64,000 nucleotides of DNA. Source: a virus. Under the pieces are notes generated by a model. That model saw nothing but the letters and a program-made list of their open reading frames with translations. It did not search any database and was not told the origin of the DNA. Of the stretch, positions 12,689 through 47,888 are shown in pieces; the first letter of the stretch is position 1, and each line of letters begins with the position of its first letter. The position numbers were made by a program, and so were the translations under genes. The stretch spans positions 62,001 through 126,000 of the IMG/VR virus record IMGVR_UViG_3300042549_005931. One strand, given 5' to 3'.

Positions 12689-13936
12689 TTACTGAGTTTT
12701 TTTGTTATACCCGTACATCTTTTTCATCTTTTCAATTTCCTCATTGATAAGATTTGTTTTTAATACTTCAGACTCATTAACCTCTTTTGTAGGTGCTGGG
12801 TCTTTTTCATACATTGGAGCCTTTTCTTGTTCTTTTTCTTTTTTATTTGCTCTGTCTGCTAATTTTTTTCCTGTGTTAGTTGGAATAACGTTTCCCGCAT
12901 CGTGTGAATTACCCATTGTAGTATCACCATCTAATGCTTTCTTTAATCTTGCTTTAAACTCTTCTGATGGTTCGCTATCATAATCTAAATCCAATAATGT
13001 ACCACCTCTAAAGTTACTTACAAATTCATCTTCTTTTTCATCATTGTTAACCACAACCTTTTCTCCCTTTTTATTTGCTTCAGGGAATTCAGGATTACTT
13101 CCACCAGGTATTTCTAACTGACCTTTGATTTTTTTCTTTACATCATTTAAGTTAGCATCGTTCTCTTTACCACTTGCAGTACGTACTTTCTTTTGAGTTT
13201 CGATACCCGGTACCGCAGCTTCACTAACCATTTTACTAATTAATGCAACTAACTCAGATTCAGTTAAACGTAAAGTTTTCTTTTTAGATTCCATCATATT
13301 ACCTGAACACTCCGTACACATACCTTCTTCATTCATCATACCACCACACTCGTTACAAGTTTGTGACATTTCGTTAATTTCTTCTTCCATGTATCCGCTA
13401 CCACATTCATCACATTCTTCCTCTTCTTCTTTGGTATCTTGTTTTTGACCTCTAAGAATTTTGAAATCTTCAGCATCTATTTCACCATTATCATTTTTAT
13501 CCAGTTTCTTTTGTCCACCGATTAATTCTTCTTTAGTATCTTTTTTGTTACCTCTAAGAATTTCAAAATCCTCAGCATCAATTTTACCATTGTGATTCTT
13601 GTCTATTTTTTTTTGACCACCTTTTAATTCTTCTTTCATATCGTTGTTTTCTGTTTCTTCTAAATCTTCACCCATTTTATCTAATTTTTCAATCATATCA
13701 CCATGAGACTCATAATTTGCTTTCTCAATGATAAATTGTTTTCCCGGGTGTTCTTTTGCCAATTTATCAACATGTTCTTCAGCTTCTTCTTGTGTGTCAC
13801 AAGTAACAACAGGTTCACCTTCACATGTTACATGATATTTTTCCATCATACCACCGGTAGATTCTTTAAGAATACTTTTCTTAATTTCATCAAAAACGAT
13901 GCTTTCCATGATTGCGTTTAATTCTTCAACTTTCAT
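12689..13936 (-). CDS. Virion-associated protein with two EF-hand-like loops and Cys knuckles
   Basis: 415 aa, highly charged. Residues 105-170 hold two copies of a ~34-residue repeat, each with a calcium-type loop: 'DKNHNGKIDAED' (112-123) and 'DKNDNGEIDAED' (146-157), as in EF-hand or dockerin loops. Three CxxC knuckles follow (175/178, 194/197, 207/210), resembling zinc ribbons. The C-terminal half is polar and low-complexity. A box at 13941-13948 lies 4 nt upstream of the ATG. Context and composition suggest a prohead, scaffold or internal virion protein, but this is inference. Ca2+ and Zn2+ binding are predicted from spacing only. Confidence 0.6.
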   Translation of the reverse strand: MKVEELNAIMESIVFDEIKKSILKESTGGMMEKYHVTCEGEPVVTCDTQEEAEEHVDKLAKEHPGKQFIIEKANYESHGDMIEKLDKMGEDLEETENNDMKEELKGGQKKIDKNHNGKIDAEDFEILRGNKKDTKEELIGGQKKLDKNDNGEIDAEDFKILRGQKQDTKEEEEECDECGSGYMEEEINEMSQTCNECGGMMNEEGMCTECSGNMMESKKKTLRLTESELVALISKMVSEAAVPGIETQKKVRTASGKENDANLNDVKKKIKGQLEIPGGSNPEFPEANKKGEKVVVNNDEKEDEFVSNFRGGTLLDLDYDSEPSEEFKARLKKALDGDTTMGNSHDAGNVIPTNTGKKLADRANKKEKEQEKAPMYEKDPAPTKEVNESEVLKTNLINEEIEKMKKMYGYNKKTQ

Positions 13937-16011: not shown

Positions 16012-16617
16012 TTATCTTGGATTGCTAAAGAATACCCTAAAATTAAAAGAAGGGTTTATATCAGTATAAATACTTTCAAAATTGGATTTGCATACAATTC
16101 CGTTGAAATTAGATGCTTTTTCTAAGTATCCTTGTGACGGTACCGTTTGTTTATATATGTCATGTTTTTCACATAACATCTCACAGAGTTCTGCAAGTGA
16201 ATTTAATTGTGTTTCACCGTACTTATCCCAAAAATAATAGTTTCTCCAATTACGTATATGTGGTTCGGACCTATATGGGTCTCCAATCCAATTATGTAAT
16301 ATACCGGTGATTGTGTTTTTATTTAACCAACCCAAATTTTCAATGGCAATTTTTATTTGCTTTCTATCAACCTTAGGGTCGTCAAATGTATTTGAACTGT
16401 AGTCGGTGTCGTATAGTTGATAAACCATACCTAGCTTAGAAACAACAAAATGGGGTACGTCTTCGTACTTCCCATTTTTGCGATACTTTATCTTATTAAT
16501 AAAATCATCTACACGTCTTTGTGTATCATACAGTAAAATCTGTGTTTTTTTAGATTTTCTTTTATGTATGTTAAGTTGTTTGGTATCTAATGTTTCGACA
16601 TTAAAGATTTCTAACAT
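16012..16617 (-). CDS. Amidase-2/PGRP-like protein, possibly degenerate
   Basis: 201 aa from the ATG at 16617 (an in-frame TTG at 16638 is less likely; the ATG follows the frameshifted end of the upstream gene by 1 nt). 'DVPHFVVSKLGMVYQLYDTD' (54-73) resembles the first zinc-His strand of N-acetylmuramoyl-L-alanine amidases, 'IAIENLGWL' the central strand, and 'GIVCKSNFESIYTDINPSFNF' (173-193) the final 'GH...DPG.F' motif. The expected second-motif His is replaced by Lys177 while Asp186 is kept. It could be a cell-wall amidase (lysis or entry) with altered metal ligands, or a non-catalytic peptidoglycan-binding version. Confidence 0.5.
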   Translation of the reverse strand: MLEIFNVETLDTKQLNIHKRKSKKTQILLYDTQRRVDDFINKIKYRKNGKYEDVPHFVVSKLGMVYQLYDTDYSSNTFDDPKVDRKQIKIAIENLGWLNKNTITGILHNWIGDPYRSEPHIRNWRNYYFWDKYGETQLNSLAELCEMLCEKHDIYKQTVPSQGYLEKASNFNGIVCKSNFESIYTDINPSFNFRVFFSNPR

Positions 16618-16719
16618 TTTATGATTTTTTATCGTCAACTTCCCAATATATGTTCTTATATCCTACTGAATTTAACGTTTCCTCCCGGTGGTTTTCTATT
16701 ATTTCTTCGGATGGTTCTG

Positions 16720-17937
16720 TTATTTTTTTTTTTCGTCAATTGCTTCATCAACAATATCTAACATTTTATCTAATTCCTTGGAGTCCGTTTGATAAATTGG
16801 TTCGTCATCTTTATCAATTGGGTCAATACCAATATCCCAAGATTCATCAACTTCGGGTATCTCATCTTCACCCATCGAATATGTTTGTTCTAAAGTTTTT
16901 TTATCTAAATTTTCTAAAAGTTCAATAGCATTTAAATAAGATTCGGGTGAAGATTCTTCCATAGCCTCCAAAATTTCCATTTGATTAAATTCCGCAATTG
17001 CTTGGTCAATTTCTTCATCAGTTAAATCAATTTCATTACTTTCCCAACTTTCAATTTTTTTTAATACTTCATCTTGTTTATCAAGATTTACAATATTTTC
17101 TTTTTCATCCTCCAATCTATATTCACTGTTAGCTAACGCACCAACAGGGTCTTCACTATCATCCTCATATCCTCGTATTTCATTTTGAATTTCTCCAATT
17201 TTTTTCATACGTTCAGCAATTCTTTTAAATTCAATTTTTTGTGCGCGTTCCAATATTTCTTCATCACTTAAAGTCACTTCATCTTTTAAGGAAGCTTTTT
17301 GAAGTTTTTCATATTCTTCTTTCGGTTTTCTATGTAATAGACGTTCTTCAAGTAATGTCAAATCTTCTTCAGACAATCTAACTCTTGAAATCTCCCCAAT
17401 TAAATCAGACGCATCTACTTTTGTTGGTTCTTCTTTCTCTTTTTTATCATCAACAACTAATTCAACTTGTCTTTCACCTTCACTGAATTTTACTAACATA
17501 TGAAGGAATGATAATGATATTAGTGGTAACATACCACCTGAGAAGAACGCCAAGAATCGTTTGTGTCCTATGAAGTCCGTAGGCTCCACCCCCGTTATTT
17601 CTAACAATGGTGATACTAGCTCAACCCAAGATTTAAACGAACTGGCGGTTACATCAATAAATGAATAAGCAAAGAATATATTGCCTATAAATTGTATTAA
17701 TGTAACGATACCGAATGGGAAATAAATTTTCTTTCCCATATTTGCCGAAATTGCGGCAAGTGCTGACAACGCTGCAATTTCAATACCTACTGATAGATAG
17801 ATTGCCCACGTAAAAGGATTTGATATACCGTACCATTGAGTAACGTGTGATATTGAAACCACCGCTACCGTAATGATTGGTATCAAAAACGCTAATATGA
17901 TTATCGTTTTGTAATTATTATGAAACCAAACTTTCAT
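16720..17937 (-). CDS. Four-helix membrane protein with long acidic tail; -1 frameshift probably extends it to 16619
   Basis: 405 aa in frame 0. The N-terminal ~155 residues hold four transmembrane helices (about 10-30, 40-65, 72-95, 128-150). The rest is acidic, helical and probably coiled coil, facing the cytoplasm. The frame stops right after an A11 run (DEKKK then TAA). Shifting to -1 on the run gives 34 more residues ('ITEPSEEIIENHREETLNSV', then 'GYKNIYWEVDDKKS') ending at 16619, one nt before the next ATG. This tight junction suggests the extended form is genuine or that one A is missing in the assembly. Role unknown; it could be a membrane-anchored factor in lysis or phage-factory organisation. 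Confidence 0.7.
   Translation of the reverse strand: MKVWFHNNYKTIIILAFLIPIITVAVVSISHVTQWYGISNPFTWAIYLSVGIEIAALSALAAISANMGKKIYFPFGIVTLIQFIGNIFFAYSFIDVTASSFKSWVELVSPLLEITGVEPTDFIGHKRFLAFFSGGMLPLISLSFLHMLVKFSEGERQVELVVDDKKEKEEPTKVDASDLIGEISRVRLSEEDLTLLEERLLHRKPKEEYEKLQKASLKDEVTLSDEEILERAQKIEFKRIAERMKKIGEIQNEIRGYEDDSEDPVGALANSEYRLEDEKENIVNLDKQDEVLKKIESWESNEIDLTDEEIDQAIAEFNQMEILEAMEESSPESYLNAIELLENLDKKTLEQTYSMGEDEIPEVDESWDIGIDPIDKDDEPIYQTDSKELDKMLDIVDEAIDEKKK
16723..16733 (-). other. A11 slippery run, candidate frameshift/slippage site
   Basis: Eleven As on the coding strand directly before the in-frame TAA at 16720-16722. A -1 shift, or an mRNA or genome with 12 As, would read on for 34 sense codons to the TAA at 16619-16621. 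Confidence 0.6.
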
Positions 17938-18203
17938 TATTTGTTAGATTCTAATTTTTTTATTTCTTCGTCAATCTGTGTTTGTCTTTGAACATCTAAA
18001 ATTTTTCTATCAGATGCTTGGATTGAACGTTTCTCGGATTTTAATCCTTCGATTTGCATTTGTTTATTTAAACGGCCTTCTAATTCGGTCATTTCTTTTC
18101 TAACCTTAGTTATTTCTCTTGTGTCACCACAACTTTTTAAAAAACCTAATAATGATATCACTAATACAATCATAGTGAATTTTTCTTCGATAAATTTTTT
18201 CAT
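17937..18203 (-). CDS. Small membrane-anchored coiled-coil protein
   Basis: 88 aa. An N-terminal hydrophobic helix (about 8-25, 'FTMIVLVISLLGFLKSCGD') contains a Cys in a loose lipobox-like context (LKSC), followed by a charged coiled coil. Its stop overlaps the next ATG by one base, coupling it to the four-helix membrane protein. Size and layout resemble spanin-type (Rz/Rz1) subunits, but that is a guess from shape only. Confidence 0.6.
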   Translation of the reverse strand: MKKFIEEKFTMIVLVISLLGFLKSCGDTREITKVRKEMTELEGRLNKQMQIEGLKSEKRSIQASDRKILDVQRQTQIDEEIKKLESNK

Positions 18204-24215: not shown

Positions 24216-24890
24216 CTATTCGTCATAAAGTGAATTTAAATTACTATTTTTCATATACTTGGCTCTATTAATTTTACCAAGACTTTCTGTAATAGCATCC
24301 AATTCTTTTTGTAATTTTTCATTTAGCCCTTTTAGACGAATAATTTCAGTTTCGTCTATTTTAACGATTTCTTTTATAACTTCAACAGGTACTTCTTTGA
24401 TAACCTCTTTGATTACTTCGATTGGTACTTCTTTAATAACTTCAATAGGAACCTCCTTTATTACTTCAACCGGTACCTCTTTGATTATTGTTTTGGTTTT
24501 CGATTTACCCTGTACTTCTTTTATAACTTCAACCTCGATAGGAACTTCTTTTATTATTTCCTTAATGACCTCGACTTCAATGGGAACTTCTTTGATGACT
24601 TCCTTAATAACCTCGACCTGTACTTCTCTAATAACTTCCCTAATAACCTCAACTGGTACTTCCACAAGCTTTTCAACTGTGACTTCAACGATTTTTTCGA
24701 CTTCTTTGATGATTTCTTTTTCAATTGTTACCTCCTTTCCTTTTATATGTGATGGAGTCTCACCATACTTTAAAAGTGTGAAACCCCTGTTAAATGTTTC
24801 TTTAGCTTTCTTATCTACGTCTTGAATGTTATTTAATTCACAATATTGTATGAATTCTTTATCCAAGGTTAAGGTGTACTTCTTTACCAT
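24216..24890 (-). CDS. Protein with long Glu-Val-Ile-Lys-Pro repeat
   Basis: 224 aa. Residues 1-50 look globular ('MVKKYTLTLDKEFIQYCELN'). About residues 52-175 are a tandem repeat of EVPVEVIKEV/IKEVPIEV units with alternating charge and beta-branched residues. The tail is a helical, coiled-coil-like segment ('LKGLNEKLQKELDAITESLG'). Such repeats are expected to form an extended rod or coil. It overlaps SbcD by 32 bp. The repeat DNA (about 24365-24735) is also a potential recombination hot spot. Function unknown. Confidence 0.65.
   Translation of the reverse strand: MVKKYTLTLDKEFIQYCELNNIQDVDKKAKETFNRGFTLLKYGETPSHIKGKEVTIEKEIIKEVEKIVEVTVEKLVEVPVEVIREVIREVQVEVIKEVIKEVPIEVEVIKEIIKEVPIEVEVIKEVQGKSKTKTIIKEVPVEVIKEVPIEVIKEVPIEVIKEVIKEVPVEVIKEIVKIDETEIIRLKGLNEKLQKELDAITESLGKINRAKYMKNSNLNSLYDE
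24365..24735 (-). repeat. Tandem EVPVEVIKEV coding repeat
   Basis: Imperfect 24-39-bp units encode (I)KEVP(V/I)EV. Unit length is best defined at the protein level; DNA copies vary at third positions. Confidence 0.7.
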
Positions 24891-34810: not shown

Positions 34811-37800
34811 TTACACCGTTATTATATATGCAGTTGTTTCTGTACAACCATTATTATCGGTAACTTTAACATAATAATAACCTGCCGTAACACTACTAAA
34901 TGTTACATTTGATGTATCAGTTAATGTGTCAACTACACTACCTCCACCAACTTCGTATGGTGCTGAGAAATCTTGATACAATTCAAATGTTTTACCACCT
35001 GAAGCACCACCTGAAACGGATGCATAAATTTGGTCAAATGCAGTTTTTTGTGCAAATATTCCAAGTGCACTTGGTTGTGTTATTGTACGAGAATATTCTT
35101 CAACTTTACCCGCACTATCTTTAATATAAACAGTGTACGTACCTGCAGGTACATTATATGTTGTTGATGAGGTCCAATTTGTATATGTGGTATAAACACT
35201 ACTTAATTTAGTTTGGAAAGTTCCGCCACTTCCACCTGTTACGTTAGTGATAGTTATCGTACCGTCATTTCCATTACACGCCGCATTTGCACTTGATACT
35301 GTTGCGGTTATACAAATTGATTCATATAATGTTACGGTTTTGTCAGTATAAACACTAGTATTACAATTAGGACTTGCATTGTAAACCCTTACAGTGTATA
35401 CTTGACTACCGCCTAAACCGTTTATATATCCAGTATCAATTGTTGCATTTCCACTACCATTTATAGTTCCATCAGGTGATGTACAACCATTATTTGTACA
35501 TGAGAATGTTGCACCATTACAATATCTATAAAAGTCACCAGGGTTTCCACCTGTAATTAAAAGTTTACCAGTCGTACTTGTACCATTCGTAACACAATTT
35601 GGTTGTGTTGTACCCAAATTAAATATTGGGTATGATAAGATTGTTATATCGGTTGTTGTTGCGGCAGCACTTCCGCCAGTACCATTTAATACCACATAGA
35701 ATGATTCACTACCTTCAGATAATCCGTCAGATGAAATTGTTAATGTAAATGTACCCGTATTACTATTAATTGTAACATTTCCACTTGTTGCACTTGAGAA
35801 ATCGGCAGATGATGTTGTTCCATTATAACCAACATACCAACCAAGTGACGTTCCATTTCCAATATCTGTTGTATTAACTGTCAATGTTATAGTATCACCC
35901 TCAGCAACAGTATATGCCGATGATGTGATGCCATATGTTGGTTCCGCAACATTATTAACACTAATTGTAAATTGTTTTTCTGTGTATAGTCCACCTTGGT
36001 CAGTTGAACGAACTCTAATTGAGTATGACGATTTGGTTTCATAATCAAAAACAACTGAATTTCTAAGTGAGCTTCCTGAAATATTAAAGCTACTATTATC
36101 TCCACTACCTGTTCCCGCAACTAATGTATATGTAAATGAGTTACCTGAATCGGGGTCAATTGTTTGGAAGGTACCAATTGATGTGTTTATTGATGTGTTT
36201 TCATTTTGTGAACTATTACTTAATATAATATCTGTCGGTGTTTCATTAACATTATTTACATATATCGTAAAATCTTTCTCGTAATATAAACCACCTCCGT
36301 CTGTTGAACGAATTCTAATTGAGTAAGATGATTTTGATTCATAGTTAAATGTTCCGTTAGTGAATAAATCATCTCCCGTAATTGCAAAACTACCATTATC
36401 CACACCACCTGATGCAAATGAATATGTAAATATATTAGTACCATCAGGGTCAGTTGTTGAGAACGTTCCAACAAATGTTGTTGAACTTGAATTTTCATTA
36501 ACATATACATTAGTTAAACTAATATCTGTTGGCGATTCATTTACATTATTAACACCAATTGTAAATTGTTTTTCGTTATATAAACCTCCTTGGTCTGTTG
36601 AGCGAACTCTAATCATATACGCGGTTTTAGACTCGTAGTTAAAAACTATAGAATTTCTAAGAGCGTTTCCTGAAATATTGAAACTACTATTATCATCACT
36701 ACCTGTTCCCGCAACTAACGTATAAGTGAATGTGTTACCCACATCAGGGTCACTTGTTGAGAAAGTACCAATTGTAGTATTAATCGATGTATTTTCATTT
36801 TGTGAGGTATTACTTAAATTAATATCTGATGGTGTTTCATTAACATTATTAACAAATATTGTAAATTGAGCTTCTACATATAATCCACCTTGGTCTGTTG
36901 AGCGAACTCTAATTGTATATGATGATTTAGTTTCATAATCCAAAAATACAGTATTTCTTAGTGAGCTTCCTGAAATATCAAAACTACCATTATCTCCACT
37001 ACCAGTTCCTGTCACTAATGTATAAGTAAATGTGTTACTTGCATCAGGGTCAGTTGTTGAGAAGGTTCCAATTGTTGTATATTGTGCTGAACCTTCATTA
37101 ATATTGTTAGTACTTAACGATATTGACGCTGGTGTTTCGTTCACATTACTAATGGTTATAGTGAATATTTTTTCAAAAAATTGTCCAAGTGAATTGGTTG
37201 AGCGAACTCTAATTGAGTACGATGACTTAGCCTCAAAATTATAAACTTCAGAACTTCTTAACTGTGTTCCTGATATGTTAAAACTACCATTATCACCACT
37301 ACCCGTTCCTGTAACTAATGTATATGTATACGTCTCAGTAATTGGACTTGCGGTTTGTGATGAGAATGTTCCAATAACATAATTTATTGAACTATTTTCA
37401 GGTATTGATTCACTCGATAATGAAATACCATTTGGTGGGTATGGTGACGGTGTCGGTGTTTGTGTTGGTGTTCTTGTTGGCGTAACAGTATTTGTTGGCG
37501 TTTGTGTTCTCGTTGGCGTAACAGTATTTGTAGGCGTAACAGTATTTGTAGGTGTAACAGTGTTTGTTGGTGTTTGTGTTGGTGTTCTCGTTGGTGTAAC
37601 AGTATTTGTTGGTGTTTGTGTTGGTGTTCTCGTTGGTGTAAAAGTATTTGTTGGTGTTTGTGTTGTTGTTGGTGTAAACGTATTTGTAGGTGTAACAGTG
37701 TTTGTTGGTGTTTGTGTTGGTGTTCTTGTTGGCGTAACAGTATTTGTTGGTGTTTGTGTTGTTGTTGGTGTAAACGTATTTGTAGGTGTAACAGTGTTTG

Positions 37801-40800
37801 TTGGTGTGGTCGATGGCGTGAAAGTAGGTGTTGGTGTAACAGTATTTGTTGGTGTTTGTGTTCTCGTTGGTGTTACAGTTGGGGTAACCGTATTTGTTGG
37901 TGTTACAGTACTTGTTTGGGTTGGAGTTGGGGTTGGTGTAGGTGTTACACACGGTGCGGTTGATGTAACTTGAGAGTTACCACTAACATCGGTAATAGTT
38001 AATACATTACCACTACCGTCACTTTTTCTAATAAAAAACGTGGAAACTCCTGTAGTACCTAAAGTTGTATTTAATTCAGCAATAGTCCAAGCATCGGTAC
38101 CATCTGGTGACTGATATAAAAATTCATTTAATTCCAATGGTTGGTCAGCGTCATAAATTAAAATTTGTGTACTCGGTGAATAACAAACCGTATATGAATC
38201 TGTTGAAATATAGTAATATGCCCCATCAAGTGGATTAGACGTTGATGGTGTTATAGTAGGTGTAACGGTACTTGTAGGTGTAGGTGTTTGTGTTCTTGTT
38301 GGCGTAACAGTATTTGTTGGTGTCACCGTATTTGTTGGTGTTTGTGTTCTCGTTGGTGTAACAGTGTTTGTTGGTGTAGTTGATGGTGTAAAAGTAGGTG
38401 TTGGTGTAACAGTTGGGGTCGTAGTTGTAGTTGGTGTTGGTGTTGGAGTACGCGTAGGTGCGACATAACAACCACCAAGTGATAATATTGAAATTTGTGC
38501 AATGTTATTTTGGTCTTCAACTCTAGTTGACCCCTTTAACGTACCATAAAATACCCCCGTATTAATTGTATATATACCCTGAGATACTTCTTCATATATC
38601 GTTGTATATGTTTCATCAAAATATTCAATAAATCCACCTGAATTAACAATATACGTGATACCGGTATATGCATCACAAATTGTTGGTGGAACACATTCAC
38701 TATATGTACCTATATTAAATGTAACCCTATTAAATGGATTTGGGCTATTAAATGATGTAATTGTTACATTTGATATATCATTAAAATTCAAATCGGGTAA
38801 TGGTATAAATTTTTCACTTTCATCACTTAAAAAATTAACCGTTACCGTGGAATATAATACACTACTACCCGTATATATATTTGCATTAAAATTAACTCCA
38901 ACATATGAAACTGTTTGTCCGCTTTGCGAATCCTTTATTATAAATTTAACACCATTATCACTTAAATCACTACAAATTTCTTCTGAATCAATAACTAAAA
39001 TACTTGATTGAAAATAACTAAAAATTGTACTATCGAATGGATAAATTTCACGGTATAAACTATCGGCAGCTTCGGTGTAATCGTATGTTGATAGGTTATC
39101 ATCATACAAATAAAATGTTTCTTGGGTTGATAAATTATTTATAAATCCTCTAACAACGAGTGGGTCACTATAGAACGATGATTCATTCCAATTATTAATT
39201 ATATTGATGTTGGTATTACCGTCAAATATTAAATTATCTCGATTATTCGATGTTGCAAACCAAGCACTTGTATAATTTAAGTTTGTGTTTGAAACACTGT
39301 ACGTTCCGGTAGTTCCGGAAACTGAAGAATCCCCACTATTTACCCATAATAAAATATCCGTAACTATACCATTTGTTAATTCATAAATTTTTCTATAATA
39401 TGTTTCATCGATAACCGAATAATATCCATTTAACACACTATAAAATCCATCTCTTTCATAATATAATTTTTTACCAATTGTAACACCTTGTGTATCTGAA
39501 TTATCATAAAATAATGTATAAATATTTTGTATATTTTCTACTTTTATTTCATGTGTGAAATATGTGATAATACTGGTTACACCTGGTTTTGATTTAAATG
39601 GTAATTCTCCCGTTGTTCCAGTTAAAGATATTAAATAATTATTTGCTTGACTGTCAGCATCTTCAATTGAAATTGTTGATTCTATTAATCCACGAGGAAC
39701 AACAATTTTTTTAGGTATAAAGACATTTAAATCTCCAATTTTTTTAGTGGTAGTTGTTAATTCAAATGTTATTTCATTATTAGTATATCCACTAGCAGAT
39801 TTTTCAGGAACACCCATAGTATAACAAAGTAATATTTCACTATTATACTGTGTATCATAAAAAACCGGTGATGAATCGGGAACTGTTGATATTTTAAATA
39901 AATCTAAACTATATTCACGTACTGTATTTAAAGCATATGATACCTCTCTGGACGTTATGACTCCTGTATTTGAAATTGTATAAAAATAATCTCCGTCACA
40001 TAATGTGGTATAATAATTTTCATATGGAGTAGAACTATGTTCATTACCTGTAGTAAAATCGGCGTGTTTATAAATTGTTATTCCAGGTTTTAAATATGGC
40101 GTTGTTGTATATCGTCTTCTTAATACTTTAGAATCTTCAAACACATCTTTATTTGTTCCAAAAATACTATACAAAAATCCTAATAAAGCACCAACAATTG
40201 GTATTGAATTTAAAAAGCTAAAAATACCGAGTGCTAGAAATGCATCAGCTATATTGTCATATGTTGTTTTTGACTTAAATCCCTCACTATCACCCCCATA
40301 AAGAAAATATGACGCAATTGCTTTAACAACAGCATGTCTACTCCCCGGTATTGGAATATGTTTTTCCTCATTATAATTGTAAATTGTAAAAGCATTATTA
40401 CTGGCTAAATGTGGTGTTGAATTTGACACACCAAGAAAATATGAATAAACTATTGGTTGTGTTAAAGTACTTGGGGTAATAGTTTTAGTTATCGTTGCAT
40501 TAAATTCCGGAAGTTTAAAATCTATCGCACTCCAAAATGCCCTATCATATGAAGGTGTAATTGTTAAATCGGTGGTAAAAACATTTGTTTGTGGTATGAA
40601 TGTAAAATCTTTAGGCCCGTTATATATTGGTGTTGCTTTTAGAGGTTTAAGGAACTCATTTTTAAAATTATAATCAACTTTTGTTCCGTAAGTTCTTTTT
40701 ATGTCACCCAATCCAAGTTTATAAATGAGATTTGTATTATATATTGCGCCATAATAATATGGTAGGCATCCCCATTCAAAAAATGGGTCATTAAATACAA

Positions 40801-42145
40801 CACAATTTGACGTAAAGGTAAAGGAGGTTGGCCAATTCTCTATCAACACAGGTGTGTATACTCGTGTGATTACTTTTGGGTTATAGTATGAATCGTATGG
40901 TGAATATGGGTGAAGTCCAAGTCTATAATTATAAATTTCGGTACCACAAGGAGCATCAATTTCATAGGGTGTATTTGGGGGGTCAGCACAATCATCCCTT
41001 GTATTTATTGGATATTCAGTTGCCACTCTAAGATGAACCATTCCGGTTATGGTTACTATACTAACAGTTTCATTCGCTTCAAATAGTGTATCAAACCTTA
41101 CTTTATTAAAATCACAACCACCACCAACACTAAGTTGTCCAGGTTCATCTAAATTTAGACCATCACCAACTGTAAAAAAAACTCGACGAGTTCTTTGCGG
41201 AGTTGTTGGAATTTTATTTACACTTATTTGAACTAATCTATGATTTGTTGGATAATGAAAAATATAATCGACAATTTGATATTTGTATCCATTTGTTTTA
41301 ACGTTAGTGGCATTTCGATAATATGGATGTGGAACCATTTTACAAGGTATTCCACCACCACTAAAAGATTCATCCCTACATTGGTTTGAAAATCTATATT
41401 CGGTACTACATGTATAAGCCACCATGGTGTGTGATACATTATTATATACATAATAAAAAATGATAGGTGTGGCAACACTAGCCCTCAACTTTGAGTTATC
41501 GTAATGTGTTTTAGGTACAAAAGTGTCACCGTTAGATACTTCATTAGCCAATAAATCATCATAATACCACCTACTATTTATGTAACTGTTATTTGAAGAA
41601 CTATCTGTTTTTTCTTTATATAATGTGACAACTTGAGGACATGTTGTACATACATAATCATTATTAGTATATCCACTACAAAATTCTTCAAAGTATATCG
41701 GAGGGTCACAATCAAATTTTATTTTAAAACTTCCTGAAGTACCACCCGTGGTCTTAAAATCTATGGTAAAATAAATGTCATTTGTGTTATCGACATCTAC
41801 TGAAAAATGAAAGTACTTATTAACTGCAGTTGGTAAAGTATTAATGTCAATTGTTGAAATTACCAAATCTTTACCATTAACTAATTGTTTTATGTAAATA
41901 ATGGTATTTGCTCCACCCATACTTATGGGTGTCATTGTTAATCTAATTAATTTGCGTAAAGAAGGTGGGGTTGTTGATACGTCTTTTTTTAAATCTTTTA
42001 ATTCATTGTATTTTAAAAAAAAAGTGGTGCCTGACACATGTAATCCTTGAGTGCTCCATGTTAAAGTTTTTTCAACACCACATTCATTTGCTATGGGTGT
42101 TGAACTATCAATAGGTACCGGACAATTAAAATTAAATTCACTCAT
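34811..42145 (-). CDS. Giant adhesin-like fibre protein: TPT stalks, five cadherin-like repeats, Calx-beta and SprB-like modules
   Basis: 2444 aa. Residues 1-1225 are a unique, Cys-containing region with a hydrophobic hairpin at about 630-668 ('[20 protein letters not shown]'). TPT stalks lie at about 1227-1303 and 1398-1569, separated by a small domain. Five ~100-residue cadherin-like repeats follow (about 1570-2068; each with 'IGTFST.DPD', 'YE.KSSY.IRVRSTD.GG' and 'NNVNETP'), then a Calx-beta-like domain (about 2070-2168; '[12 protein letters not shown]', '[14 protein letters not shown]'). An SprB-like repeat (about 2275-2362) and a final '[20 protein letters not shown]' repeat end the protein. 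SprB repeats belong to Bacteroidota gliding adhesins. It is probably the main host-binding tail fibre, possibly Ca2+-stiffened. Confidence 0.8.
35940..37437 (-). repeat. Five tandem cadherin-like repeats (DNA copies about 300 bp)
   Basis: Units of roughly 300 bp encode PS/TDI.LSN...[18 protein letters not shown]... and RSTDQGGLY. Long stretches are nearly identical between units 2, 3 and 5, which points to recent duplication. Confidence 0.8.
37437..37951 (-). repeat. Thr-Pro stalk repeat of the 2444-aa protein (171 aa)
   Basis: [22 protein letters not shown] units encoded by 18-bp near-repeats. Two longer blocks ([16 protein letters not shown]) recur about 100 bp apart. Confidence 0.85.
38237..38463 (-). 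repeat. Second Thr-Pro stalk repeat of the 2444-aa protein
   Basis: 75 aa of [21 protein letters not shown] units, separated from the first stalk by a ~95-aa globular domain (37960-38230). Confidence 0.8.
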
Positions 42146-42464: not shown

Positions 42465-45400
42465 TTAAAGTAATTCATCATATATTATTCTAATATCATC
42501 TCCACTTGAGGTTGCACTACCAAATATACCCGGTGTTAAGAAATTTTCGTATGCACTAATACCTCTCTTTCTTTCAATACCATTACAATCAATCCAGAAT
42601 ATATTTCCACCCGTATAAGACGCGTTAAACGATATCATAACACAATCTCCAATTTGACCCGCATAATTGGTACATGTAGTACCACTACTTGTGATTGTAA
42701 ATGTTGCTTGATTGTCAAGAATTGAAGGTGATTTCAACGATTCAACTATAATACATTCAGAAATTGTGTATGTACCAAGAGGTGCAAAGAATGATTTTTG
42801 TCCATTTTCAGTATTATAGATAATGTAACCATCATCAATTATGTTTAATGTAACATTCTCTCTAAACGTTTCGGTACCACCTGTCACAACCTCATTACAA
42901 ATTAATGTAGTTGCACATGATGTTGTTGTTTTAATATCAAATGGTTGGAAAGTTGTAGTATTTTTTGAATAAACCACAATATCTAAAACTTTCGAATCGT
43001 CAGTTCCAATAAATCCAACTGTTTTTGTTATATTATTACTTCCATTATATAAAACAAAAATTTCACCAACTTTCTCAGCGTAATTACCAACAAACACTTC
43101 TGTTGTTGAATTATATGTTATTGCACTAATTGTTACCTCATAATTACCATAAGAATTGTCTAATATGAACGTATTATTAAGTATGGTCGTACCCGCATTT
43201 AATACAGTATTAGTCACATTACCTTCATTACATGCCGCAGTTCTTAATGTATTACCTGAACAATCACCTACTAATTCAACTAATCTTGAAGTTATATTTT
43301 GATAATGTGAACCACCGCTATAAAGTACATCAAAATATGGTTCCGTTAATGAACAGTTATCATAACAAATATCACTTGGATACGTACCCGCAACTTGATA
43401 ATCAATAGATGCTATGGTTGTAGTTCCACATGGGTAATAATATAACGTAACTTTTTTATCATCACTTACATCAATATCATTTTGAGTAATTATAACATCA
43501 TAGCTAGTACATCCCGTACATTCTCTTGGTGTGGTTGTTAATGTAGGTGTAGGTGTGTTTGTAGGTGTAATCGATGGTGTGAAAGAAGGCGTAACAGTAT
43601 TTGTGGGTGTAATCGATGGTGTAAAAGTAGGTGTTGCCGTTACGGTTACTGTTTGTGTTAAAGTAACTGTTGGTGTAACAGTATTTGTTGCAGTAACACT
43701 CGGTGTGATACTGTTAGTTGGTGTAATGGTATTAGTTGGTGTAATAGTATTAGTTGGTGTAATAGTATTGGTTGGTGTAATAGTATTGGTTGGTGTAATA
43801 GTATTGGTTGGTGTAACTGTTGGCGTTTCAGTAACAGTTGGTGTGTTTGTGTTAGTTGGTGTAACGGTACTTGTAGGTGTAACAGTTGGTGTCTCAGTAA
43901 CACTTGGTGTAACGGTATTTGTAGGTGTAACAGTGTTTGTTGGTGTTTGCGTTTGTGTTTCAGTAACACTTGGTGTGATTGTGTTAGTTGGTGTGATTGA
44001 TGGGGTAACCGTAGGTGTTTCAGTATTTGTAGGTGTTGGTGTATGAGTTAAATCAGTTGTTGACGTAATTGATGGTGTTGGTGTCGTTGTTGGTGTAACA
44101 GTTTCGGTAGCTGTTGGTGTAACAGTATTCGTTGGTGTAACAGTTGGTGTAACAGTATTTGTCGCCGTAACAGTTGATGTAACAGTATTTGTTGGTGTAA
44201 CAGTTTCGGTAATAGTTGGGGTTACTGTATTCGTTGGTGTAACTGTTGGGGTTTCAGTAACTGTAGAAGTAACTGTATTTGTTGGTGTAATTGTTGGCGT
44301 TTCAGTAACAGTTGGGGTAATACTATTTGTTGGTGTAATTGTTGGCGTTTCAGTAACACTTGGAGTAATTGTGTTTGTCGGCGTAACTGTTATCGTTTCG
44401 GTAACAGTTGGAGTAACAGTATTTGTTGGTGTAATTGTTGGCGTTTCAGTAATAGTTGAGGTAACAGTATTTGTTGGTGTAACTGTTGGAGTTTCAGTAA
44501 CACTTGGGGTAACTGTATTTGTTGGTGTGGTGGTGTTGGTAGTAGTTGGGGTAACAGTATTTGTCGGTGTAATTGTTGGGGTTTCAGTAACTGTAGAAGT
44601 AACGGTATTTGTTGGTGTTACAGTTTCGGTAACTGTATTTGTTGGTGTAATTGAAGGTGTAGACGTAGTTGTTGGTGTAACAGTTTCGGTAACTGTTGGA
44701 GTAACACTATTTGTTGGTGTAATTGTTGGCGTTTCAGTAACTGTTGATGTGGGTGTTGGAGATAAACCAGTGGTTGCACTAACACTTGGAGTAATACTAT
44801 TTGTTGGTGTAATTGTTGGCGTTTCAGTAACAGTTGGTGTAATACTATTTGTTGGTGTAACAGTTTCGGTAACTGTTGGAGTAACACTATTTGTTGGTGT
44901 AATAGTATTGGTTGGTGTAACTGTAGGTGTTTCAGTTACCGATGGGGTAATACTATTTGTTGGCGTTATCGTAGGTGTCTCAGTAATAGTTGGTGTAACG
45001 CTCGATGTTACAGTGTTGGTTGGTGTGGGTGTATGTGTTAAATCAGGTGTTAAAGTAACTGTTGCAGTAACGGTGTTTGTAGGTGTTACAGTTGGGGTTT
45101 CAGAATTTGTCGGTGTGATACTTGGTGTAACTGTTGTAGTTTCGGTATTTGTAGGTGTTGTCGTCATTGTTGACGTAACAGTTTCAGTAACACTTGGTGT
45201 AACTGTATTCGTTGGGGTTAAGGTAGGTGTTTCTGTATTTGTTGGAGTTACACTTGGTGTGATTGTGTTTGTAGGTGTTACGGTTTCAGTAACAGTTGGG
45301 GTAATAGTATTTGTCGGTGTAACTGTTGGTGTTTCAGTATTTGTAGGTGTTGGTGTAACGGTATTACTTGGTGTAACACTTGATGTGACAGTATTTGTAG

Positions 45401-47888
45401 GTGTTGGTGTATGAGTTAAATCAGGTGTTAATGTAACACTTGGTGTAATCGTATTAGTTGGTGTAACACTTGATGTAATCGTATTAGTTGGTGTAACACT
45501 TGATGTTACAGTGTTAGTAGGTGTGATACTTAAAGTAGGTGTTATTGATGGTGTTACAGTATTTGTAGGTGTAGCAGTTGGCGTCTCAGTAACGGTTGGT
45601 GTTTGAGTAACTGTTTGTGTTGGTGTTTCAGTTATTGATGTTGTAATGGTTGGCGTAACACTATTTGTTGGAGTTACACTTGGTGTAATACTGTTTGTTG
45701 GGGTTACACTTGGCGTAACACTATTTGTTGGTGTTTGAGACGGTACAAAATTCTCTGTTAGAGTTGGCGTGTTTGTTGGTGTAACACTATTTGTTGGAGT
45801 AGTGGTTGTGGTTGGTGTAATCGTCTTAGTAGGTGTTACCGTTGGTGTTGGTGTTTTAGTTAAATTAGGTGTCAATGTAACACTTGGTGTAACCGTTTTT
45901 GTTGGTGTGGCGGTTTGTGTTGGAGTTTTAGTTAAATTAGGTGTTAATGTAACACTCGGTGTAACTGTTCTTGTTGGAGTTACCGTGTTGGTTGGTGTTA
46001 CAGTTGGTGTAGTTGTTTTTGTCGCAGTAACACTAGGTGTAACTGTTCTTGTTGGTGTAGCACTTGGAACAATTGTTCTCGTTGGTGTAACACTCGGTGT
46101 AACTGTTTTTGTTGGTGTAATTGACTTAGTAATCGATGGTGTTACGGTATTTGTTGGTGTTAAAGTTACTGTTGGTGTGATAGTACTTGTTGGAGTCACC
46201 GTTGGTGTTGGTGTTGGCGTTTTGGTTAAATAATTTGGACATTGAACATTAAAATTCCATAATGTTTCAGGGTCAGTGCTAGCATTTACAACAACTTTTA
46301 CGGTATTTTCAACAGAGGTTGAACCTGTTATTAAAATGTTACTAATACCTGAACCGGTATATGTTCCAATTAAATTATTTATTGGGTAATAAACACTAAA
46401 TGAATCATTAATAGTATATGAGTTGTATTCAAATATAGATTCACCAGAATAAACATTACAATTTATAAAATATGTTTGTCCCGTACCCGGCCCACCATAA
46501 ACAGGAGCGTCACATAGATAATCTCTTGTTGGTGTAACAGATGGTGTTGCAGTTTTAGTAGGTGTAACAGATGGTGTCACAGTTTTAGTTGGTGTTACTG
46601 TTGGAGTTGTTGTTTGTGTTGTCGTTGGTGTTGGTGAATTTGTAGGTGTTGGAGTTGGTGTAAATGGAATAATACATTCAACCATAAACGACCATAATGT
46701 TTCAACTTCACCACTATCCACCGGATTAACAACAACTTTCACTACATCCGATGTACCATCAAGAGATAATGTATATGTCGATACACCCGATAATGATGTG
46801 AATCCTGTTAAATATGTGTTTATAGGGTAGTAAATGTCAACAGAATCAGATATCGTAAAACCACTGAAACTAAATACTGATGTACCAGGACTATTACCAA
46901 CATTGATATAATTCTCTAATGGCATTGGTGAATATCCACCCGAGTAAATAGTGTTACATTCTGTACCTTCAACGATTGGTATGATTTCAACATCGATTTC
47001 AAACGCACAAAGTATGGTTGGCGTCATTGTTGGTGTTGGTGTTAATGTTGGTTCCATGGTCACCGTAGGTGATACCGTCGGGGTTACACTTAATGTTGGG
47101 GTTGGTGTAAGTCTTATAGTTTTTGTTGGGGTTGGTGTTACCGTATTTGTTGGAGTTACTGTTGCAGTTATAGATGGGGTAACTGTATTTGTAGGTGTTA
47201 CGGTATTTGTTGGTGTTGGAGTTTGTGTTACAAACGTTTCACAATCAATCATCATCTCTTTAGACAACGAATTGTTAGTCCAAGGTGAATCTAATTTAAT
47301 TGTTACGTGTTTTGTTCCAACCGTATCATATGATTTATATGCTTTGTAACAATTAACACCACTACAAACACCTTCAACACCAATAGGGGATGTTGTTCCA
47401 TCACCCCAATCTACTGTAAATATAATTTCACCAACACCAGCAATATTTTTTAAATTAGTTGTGTTAGTTACCGTTACATTATTACAATCAACTTCGTAAA
47501 TAAAGTTCGCATTTATTTGATTTTGTGTTGATTCAACACCAACACTACCATCAAATGCCAACATGACACCATATTCATCGGCCGTAGATTCTAAAAATAA
47601 AGGTATTTGTTGTGTGTCGTATATTTGAGAATTAATTTCTGAGGGTGTTCCACTTATTAAATTCCAAGTACCGCTTGTTGGTTCTCCCCATCTGTAGTAA
47701 CCACTATCTTCTGTTCCACCTGAAACATTAAAAACAACTAAACCCACACTAACTTGACTGTCAGTTAAACCGGACCAATCAATGGTGGATGTGTAAGTAT
47801 CGTCAGCATACCATGTTTGACCGGTCAAAGAAACCAATCTAACATTCGCAATGTTTTTACGTCTAAGGGTATACTTATTTTTCTTCAT
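42465..47888 (-). CDS. Giant virion protein with 900-aa Thr-Pro repeat stalk and PKD-like domain
   Basis: 1807 aa. The N-terminal ~220 residues include a PKD-like domain (about 148-200; '[14 protein letters not shown]', '[13 protein letters not shown]'). TPT linkers alternate with a domain present twice (about 300-406 and 458-549; shared 'FS...YTI.DS..IYYPIN' and 'VKVVVN...ETLW.F.V.C'). Residues about 555-1455 are uninterrupted [13 protein letters not shown]-type repeats. A Cys-rich C-terminal head (about 1455-1807; '[15 protein letters not shown]', '[18 protein letters not shown]') follows. The Thr-rich stalk resembles mucin-like O-glycosylation substrates of Bacteroidota. Likely a long fibre; the C-terminal head would contact the host or the virion. 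Confidence 0.75.
43528..46225 (-). repeat. 2.7-kb Thr-Pro coding repeat array
   Basis: About 150 copies of an 18-bp unit encoding TPTNT(V/I), TPT(V/I)TE or TPSVTE. At about 43719-43818 five to six units are almost identical (TPTNTI), a VNTR-like spot. Occasional [13 protein letters not shown] blocks punctuate the array. The complementary strand is open in several frames (VGVTVFVGV) purely as a result of the repeat. Confidence 0.9.
46525..46662 (-). repeat. Thr-Pro linker between the duplicated domains
   Basis: 46 aa of [16 protein letters not shown] and [16 protein letters not shown] units. Confidence 0.75.
47020..47228 (-). repeat. Thr-Pro linker after the PKD-like domain
   Basis: 70 aa of [16 protein letters not shown] and [16 protein letters not shown] units. 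Confidence 0.75.

Follow-up and report, generated by a model that had tools for sequence, protein, structure and literature searches.

A conserved A9-A11 run as a probable programmed slippage site in a membrane-protein gene of uncultured phages

An uninterrupted run of 11 adenines at the 3' end of a phage membrane-protein gene is probably a programmed slippage site from which two C-terminal forms of the protein would be produced. The run was found in a stretch of 64,000 nucleotides of IMG/VR record IMGVR_UViG_3300042549_005931 (hereafter, the window). The same arrangement, consisting of an unbroken A9-A11 run, a stop codon in the 0 frame 0-12 nt later, and a long tail in the -1 frame, was found in 43 distinct lineages. 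The initial annotation of the window had suggested that slippage on the As might yield two C-terminal forms, and this suggestion now has strong comparative support, including four lineages with inverse polarity that make the two-form reading stronger than it was from the window sequence alone. Programmed recoding of some sort at the run is almost certain.

The locus lies on the minus strand of the window. The 0-frame ORF (16720..17937) encodes 405 aa, predicted to form a four-helix inner-membrane protein whose long cytosolic arm is acidic, and would correspond to the short form. It ends ...GAT GAA GCA ATT GAC GAA AAA AAA AAA TAA. The candidate A11 slippage site (16723..16733) spans the codons GAA AAA AAA AAA, with its first A at codon position 2, and is directly abutted by the TAA stop (16720..16722). 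Past the run, the -1 frame reads ATA ACA GAA CCA ... AAA AAA TCA over 34 codons (ITEPSEEIIENHREETLNSVGYKNIYWEVDDKKS; 16622..16723), the putative C-terminus of the long form, and closes with a TAA (16619..16621) that is separated by 1 nt, a single A, from the ATG of an Amidase_2 (N-acetylmuramoyl-L-alanine amidase) gene of 201 aa (16012..16617; Pfam PF01510, E 1.3e-6, above the cut-off). The initial annotation had placed the A11 at 16733-16723 with the 0-frame stop adjoining it, which matches the sequence exactly, and had described 34 open codons in the -1 frame that end 1 nt before the amidase ATG, as we also found. ATG, GTG, and TTG codons are absent from the window tail, and four codons before it the -1 frame is already closed, indicating that the tail is not a separate gene with a standard start. 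Judged from sequence, the tail can only be translated by passage through the run or by initiation at a non-standard start. Upstream of the membrane-protein gene lies an ORF of 88 aa (17937..18203, minus strand), encoding a single hydrophobic helix and a coiled coil, whose TAA overlaps the membrane-protein ATG in the window (TAATG); the two are likely on the same transcript. This ORF matched no Pfam family, and its PHROGs matches were weak (E at least 0.01) and to groups lacking an assigned function.

Long A/T runs are depleted in this phage. The complete record has 269,133 bases and 32% G+C, and the A11 is its longest A/T run. Only two A/T runs of at least 10 were observed, compared with about 16.5 expected under a first-order Markov model (~8-fold depletion), and the other one, an A10, sits directly before a start codon, outside genes. 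The phage thus appears to avoid such runs, and the A11 stands out. A sense-strand A9 also occurs at 13606-13614 of the window, inside an ORF of 415 aa, and slippage there would end within six codons.

Relatives were collected by four scans of IMG/VR based on protein similarity, with the presence of an A-run not used as a criterion. These gave 192 scorable locus records, some from contigs fetched more than once, which were grouped into 79 clusters. The 43 slippage lineages comprise 41 scored clusters, one contig that ends early (L014/L015), and one lineage that was missed by the motif filter (L178). The 0-frame stop lies 0-12 nt 3' of the run in all 41 scored lineages, and across the slippage lineages the -1-frame tail stays open for 33-151 codons. 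The run is A9 in two of the 41 clusters, A10 in 30, and A11 in nine. None has a run shorter than nine and none an AAG interruption; AAG accounts for 18% of the Lys codons in these ORFs. The register of the run differs, its first A falling on codon position 2 in 32 clusters and on position 3 in nine, and the tail is in the -1 phase in all. A shift-prone sequence is thus kept at the end of the first ORF across diverged relatives. Comparison with related phages had been proposed in the initial annotation as a check on run length and on conservation of the shifted frame, and both proved conserved. Relatives devoid of homology in the tail, or of a conserved shifted frame, would have spoken against the proposal; neither situation was encountered. 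A short outgroup type is represented by L183. Outside IMG/VR, the membrane protein had no relative among 84,980 bacterial and archaeal genomes, and a scan of 50,697 phage records returned only one, which is distant and unannotated. These nearly empty scans indicate that uncultured phages are the only known source of the gene.

Long homopolymers are prone to sequencing error, and a single-base change would fuse the two frames of the window gene. The initial annotation offered a second option, in which one A was lost by sequencing or assembly error and the gene is in truth continuous. This option is excluded for practical purposes. The out-of-frame state was observed in 43 independent lineages from different, unrelated metagenome assemblies, none of which shows a one-base change at the run that restores the frame. 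Run length is uniform within lineages across 121 locus records, which include some contigs fetched twice (A10 in 100, A11 in 17, and A9 in four). In addition, random errors would give all three phases, and only the -1 phase was seen. Phase variation by DNA slippage, by which populations would toggle between a fused and a truncated gene, is known for membrane-protein genes with homopolymers, and the position of this homopolymer close to the 3' end of such a gene fits it. A phase-variable tract would give mixed phases, however, and none were seen: run length did not vary within lineages, no in-frame member occurred among the slippage lineages, and the four lineages in which the gene is fused differ in the sequence flanking the run and are not simply one-A variants of the same gene sequence. 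We therefore reject phase variation, which retains only a negligible probability.

Whether the tail is coding was assessed in the 41 slippage lineages. In most of them the last 11-12 codons of the tail overlap the amidase start by 32-35 nt, and this overlap alone would conserve the motif RNVGNSRRRxFR, so the last 14 codons were left out of the selection tests. For the same reason, conservation of RNVGNSRRR was dropped as proof of selection on the tail. In the remaining tail sequence, the -1 frame contains no stop in 2,618 codons, compared with 166 and 221 stops in 2,577 codons of the other frames. Tail dN/dS outside the amidase overlap is 0.30 (13 disjoint pairs, 805 codons), and substitutions at codon positions 1, 2, and 3 number 144, 162, and 269, respectively. 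These values, together with the -1 phase throughout, indicate coding selection in a uniform phase. YWE.DD and the sequence around it are found repeatedly in different lineages, and both YWE.DD... and RNVGNSRRR also occur at the in-frame end of unshifted relatives. The tails could instead be decayed 3' ends or separate small genes, with the long form never made, and two features point that way: tail sequences diverge fast, and the RNV motif has been lost in the window clade (four sequences, 34 codons), where the tail ends before the amidase gene. That explanation is very unlikely given the lack of stops and the dN/dS value, and given that a start codon is absent from the window tail and that 28 of 41 lineages have none close to the beginning of the tail. 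Pairwise dN/dS values within the window clade are noisy (0.42 and 1.33), and the tail there is too short and too similar among members to demonstrate purifying selection by itself, and it is the wider family that provides the proof.

Pro-Thr repeats (PTPTPT...) were observed in the slippage tails of L008, L016, L020, and L056 and in the 0 frame of L022 and L178. Similar repeats occur in large putative tail-fibre proteins of the window (42465-47888, 34811-42145, and 1165-2934).

In four clusters (L011, L022, L100, and L155), the tail is part of the 0 frame. All four retain an unbroken A10 at 54-98 codons before the end of the gene, and slippage on it leads to a stop within 0-24 codons. In these inverted lineages, the long form would be the default product and slippage would yield the short form. 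In a tree of the membrane domain, they are nested in the slippage clade, with L155 beside L149 (100/94) and L011 beside L054 (99/93). From this tree, which is midpoint-rooted, we infer that slippage is the older state and the inverted phase the more recent one. The A10 has been kept although the long form needs no run and despite the depletion of such runs, and this is the best evidence that two forms are selected; both products thus seem to be under selection. A second internal A10, within an EEKKN motif, lies upstream of the junction run in L022 (aa 255) and L155 (aa 270) and is possibly a former slippage end.

The same two proteins could arise if RNA polymerase or the ribosome slipped on the run. 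Where the initial annotation named a -1 frameshift or transcriptional slippage without choosing, slippage is supported and the sequence features favor the polymerase, which is probably the main slipping machine if the recoding is indeed programmed. In E. coli and Buchnera, most insertions made during transcription are single bases in A/T runs, with a frequency that increases exponentially as the run lengthens, whereas deletions are seldom found in A/T runs (PMC5574713). Mostly single-base insertion by the polymerase predicts exactly the -1 frame that is seen. An unbroken homopolymer of about nine or more is present in all 41 clusters, and transcriptional slippage would need no downstream RNA structure. 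Consistent with this, there was no excess of structure downstream of the run (mean z -0.20 at 50 nt and -0.21 at 80 nt, versus -0.15 for the control). The unbroken run of at least nine As, the lack of downstream structure, and the lack of Shine-Dalgarno usage described below together favor polymerase slippage over ribosomal frameshifting.

A -1 shift by the ribosome is a possible but less likely source of the two forms. Every run contains an in-frame slippery heptamer of the type X XXY YYZ (A AAA AAA). Bacterial ribosomes shift on A-rich heptamers (PMC3711429), and long A runs also move them: sliding in vitro is robust at A11 and slight at A9 or A10 (PMC4363877), yet 32 of 41 lineages carry A9 or A10. 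In addition, every lineage has AA(N) as the third codon of the run, which a heptamer does not need, and none of the runs is an A AAA AAG with 7-8 As. With regard to stimulators, the structure scan, which covered pseudoknot-free folds, gave no downstream signal. Shine-Dalgarno-like tetramers 5-18 nt upstream of the run were found in 15 of 41 lineages, versus 10.5% at control positions, and would suit a ribosomal shift; they may be due to local E-rich codons (GAG GAA). The phage itself appears not to use such signals, since a Shine-Dalgarno site was absent from all 35 window genes checked, and positions -20 to -1 are 83% A+T.

In the mechanism that we propose, RNA polymerase would add one extra A at the A9-A11 run in a fraction of transcripts. 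Unslipped mRNA would give the short form, stopping 0-12 nt after the run, and slipped mRNA would allow reading of the -1 tail, giving a long form that reaches the amidase start or extends 32-35 nt inside the amidase gene. A -1 ribosomal shift on the same run would give an identical protein. In the four inverted lineages the phase would be flipped, with the long form as default and slippage leading to the short form. We infer that both proteins are made, that it is the polymerase that slips, and that the short:long ratio matters. Because the amidase start overlaps or abuts the long frame, the ratio might in addition adjust how much amidase is translated. A more speculative idea, to which we assign a low probability, is a switch in the lysis region, in which the short:long ratio, together with the share of transcripts on which the last ribosomes terminate at the start of the amidase gene, would set the amount or timing of wall cutting, and the inverted lineages would represent another set point reached by flipping the default frame.

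The Amidase_2 gene lies directly downstream in all 41 slippage clusters (58-99% identical). The membrane protein thus adjoins an endolysin gene, a context shared with phage holins, and no known holin family or fold was recognized for it in Pfam, PHROGs, the PDB, or the viral library. The window protein had no match in Pfam and none in PHROGs below E 0.04; a Foldseek search with its AlphaFold model gave nothing usable in the PDB (best E 2.9), and matches in the viral fold library were only to uncharacterized or generic transmembrane proteins. From gene position only, a role in lysis or in the envelope is plausible. The AlphaFold2 model has helices at residues 2-36, 41-64, 68-93, 99-115 (amphipathic-looking), and 122-167, followed by a low-confidence arm. 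The most conserved part is the membrane domain (aa 2-167; 17437..17934, minus strand), which holds the most invariant alignment columns and was modeled with pLDDT of 74-96. In the sequence, lysine residues located at the N-terminus and between helices 2 and 3 point to a cytosolic position of both ends.

The toxin-binding half of TacA antitoxins, which is the C-terminal one, aligns with the cytosolic part of the protein in 23 of 60 relatives, counting matches with E up to 0.1 (best 4.2e-8). In L010, L021, L027, and others, residues ~175-217 (the region of window positions 17290-17415) match PF08681 TacA1 over profile positions 36-80 of 80 with 27-28 bits (cut-off 21), and the segment also has weak sequence matches to DUF1778 chains in the PDB. 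It comes without the DNA-binding half, and the window protein itself is below threshold. This segment is perhaps a membrane-held antitoxin-like decoy.

The arrangement resembles systems in which each step of the proposed mechanism has a precedent (tssM1/tssM3, spa13/spa32, and Thermus dnaX), and the type of device is thus already known. In Citrobacter rodentium, tssM1 carries an A11, about 20% of the product is the long form, and the ratio is essential; Yersinia pseudotuberculosis tssM3 is the mirror case, with slippage on an A run (PMC4256274). As in these genes for a T6SS inner-membrane protein, the phage run is situated close to the 3' end of a membrane-protein gene that is predicted to give two C-terminal forms, both polarities occur in homologous genes, and a stimulatory RNA structure is absent. 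The phage protein is unrelated, belongs to a phage and not to a T6SS, and is known from sequence alone, and its site is conserved over more than 40 lineages, compared with two genes for tssM (PMC4256274). In Shigella spa13-spa32, the slippage product overlaps the next gene and affects its expression (PMC5009743). The phage genes would share such a C-terminal extension ending across the start of the next gene, but the effect on the downstream gene was measured in Shigella, whereas the resemblance here is one of geometry only. Thermus thermophilus dnaX uses transcriptional slippage on an A9 (PMC3711429). There, too, a run of A9-A10 length allows one gene to encode two protein forms with no need for RNA structure, the products being two clamp-loader subunits instead of a membrane protein. 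Those of the phage gene would differ at their C-termini, as do gpG and gpGT. The latter, the tail assembly chaperone proteins of phage lambda, arise by a -1 ribosomal frameshift near the 3' end of the gene. That case likewise involves a phage gene with a -1 shift near its 3' end, but it is ribosomal, relies on a different slippery sequence, and belongs to a tail context before the tape measure, and the gene described here encodes a membrane protein beside an amidase.

In the literature searched, no conserved gene expressed by slippage came to light for double-stranded DNA phages, and the membrane-protein family and its inverted members appear to be undescribed. Slippage has been suggested from a single genome for a Campylobacter phage methyltransferase (PMC2853527). 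If the slippage reading is true, this is a gene expressed through slippage and retained in more than 40 lineages of large uncultured phages, both polarities occurring in one family, and gene callers truncate the membrane protein in nearly every such genome. The lineages also provide a comparative set for asking whether polymerase error serves as a fixed-ratio expression device.

A gp6-like baseplate protein of the window has a 27% match to Flavobacterium phage immuto. This match and the absence of Shine-Dalgarno sites hint at a Bacteroidota host. Elsewhere in the window, a protein of 224 aa (24216-24890) consists in part of tandem KEVPVEVIKEV-like repeats and is overlapped by a long antisense ORF.
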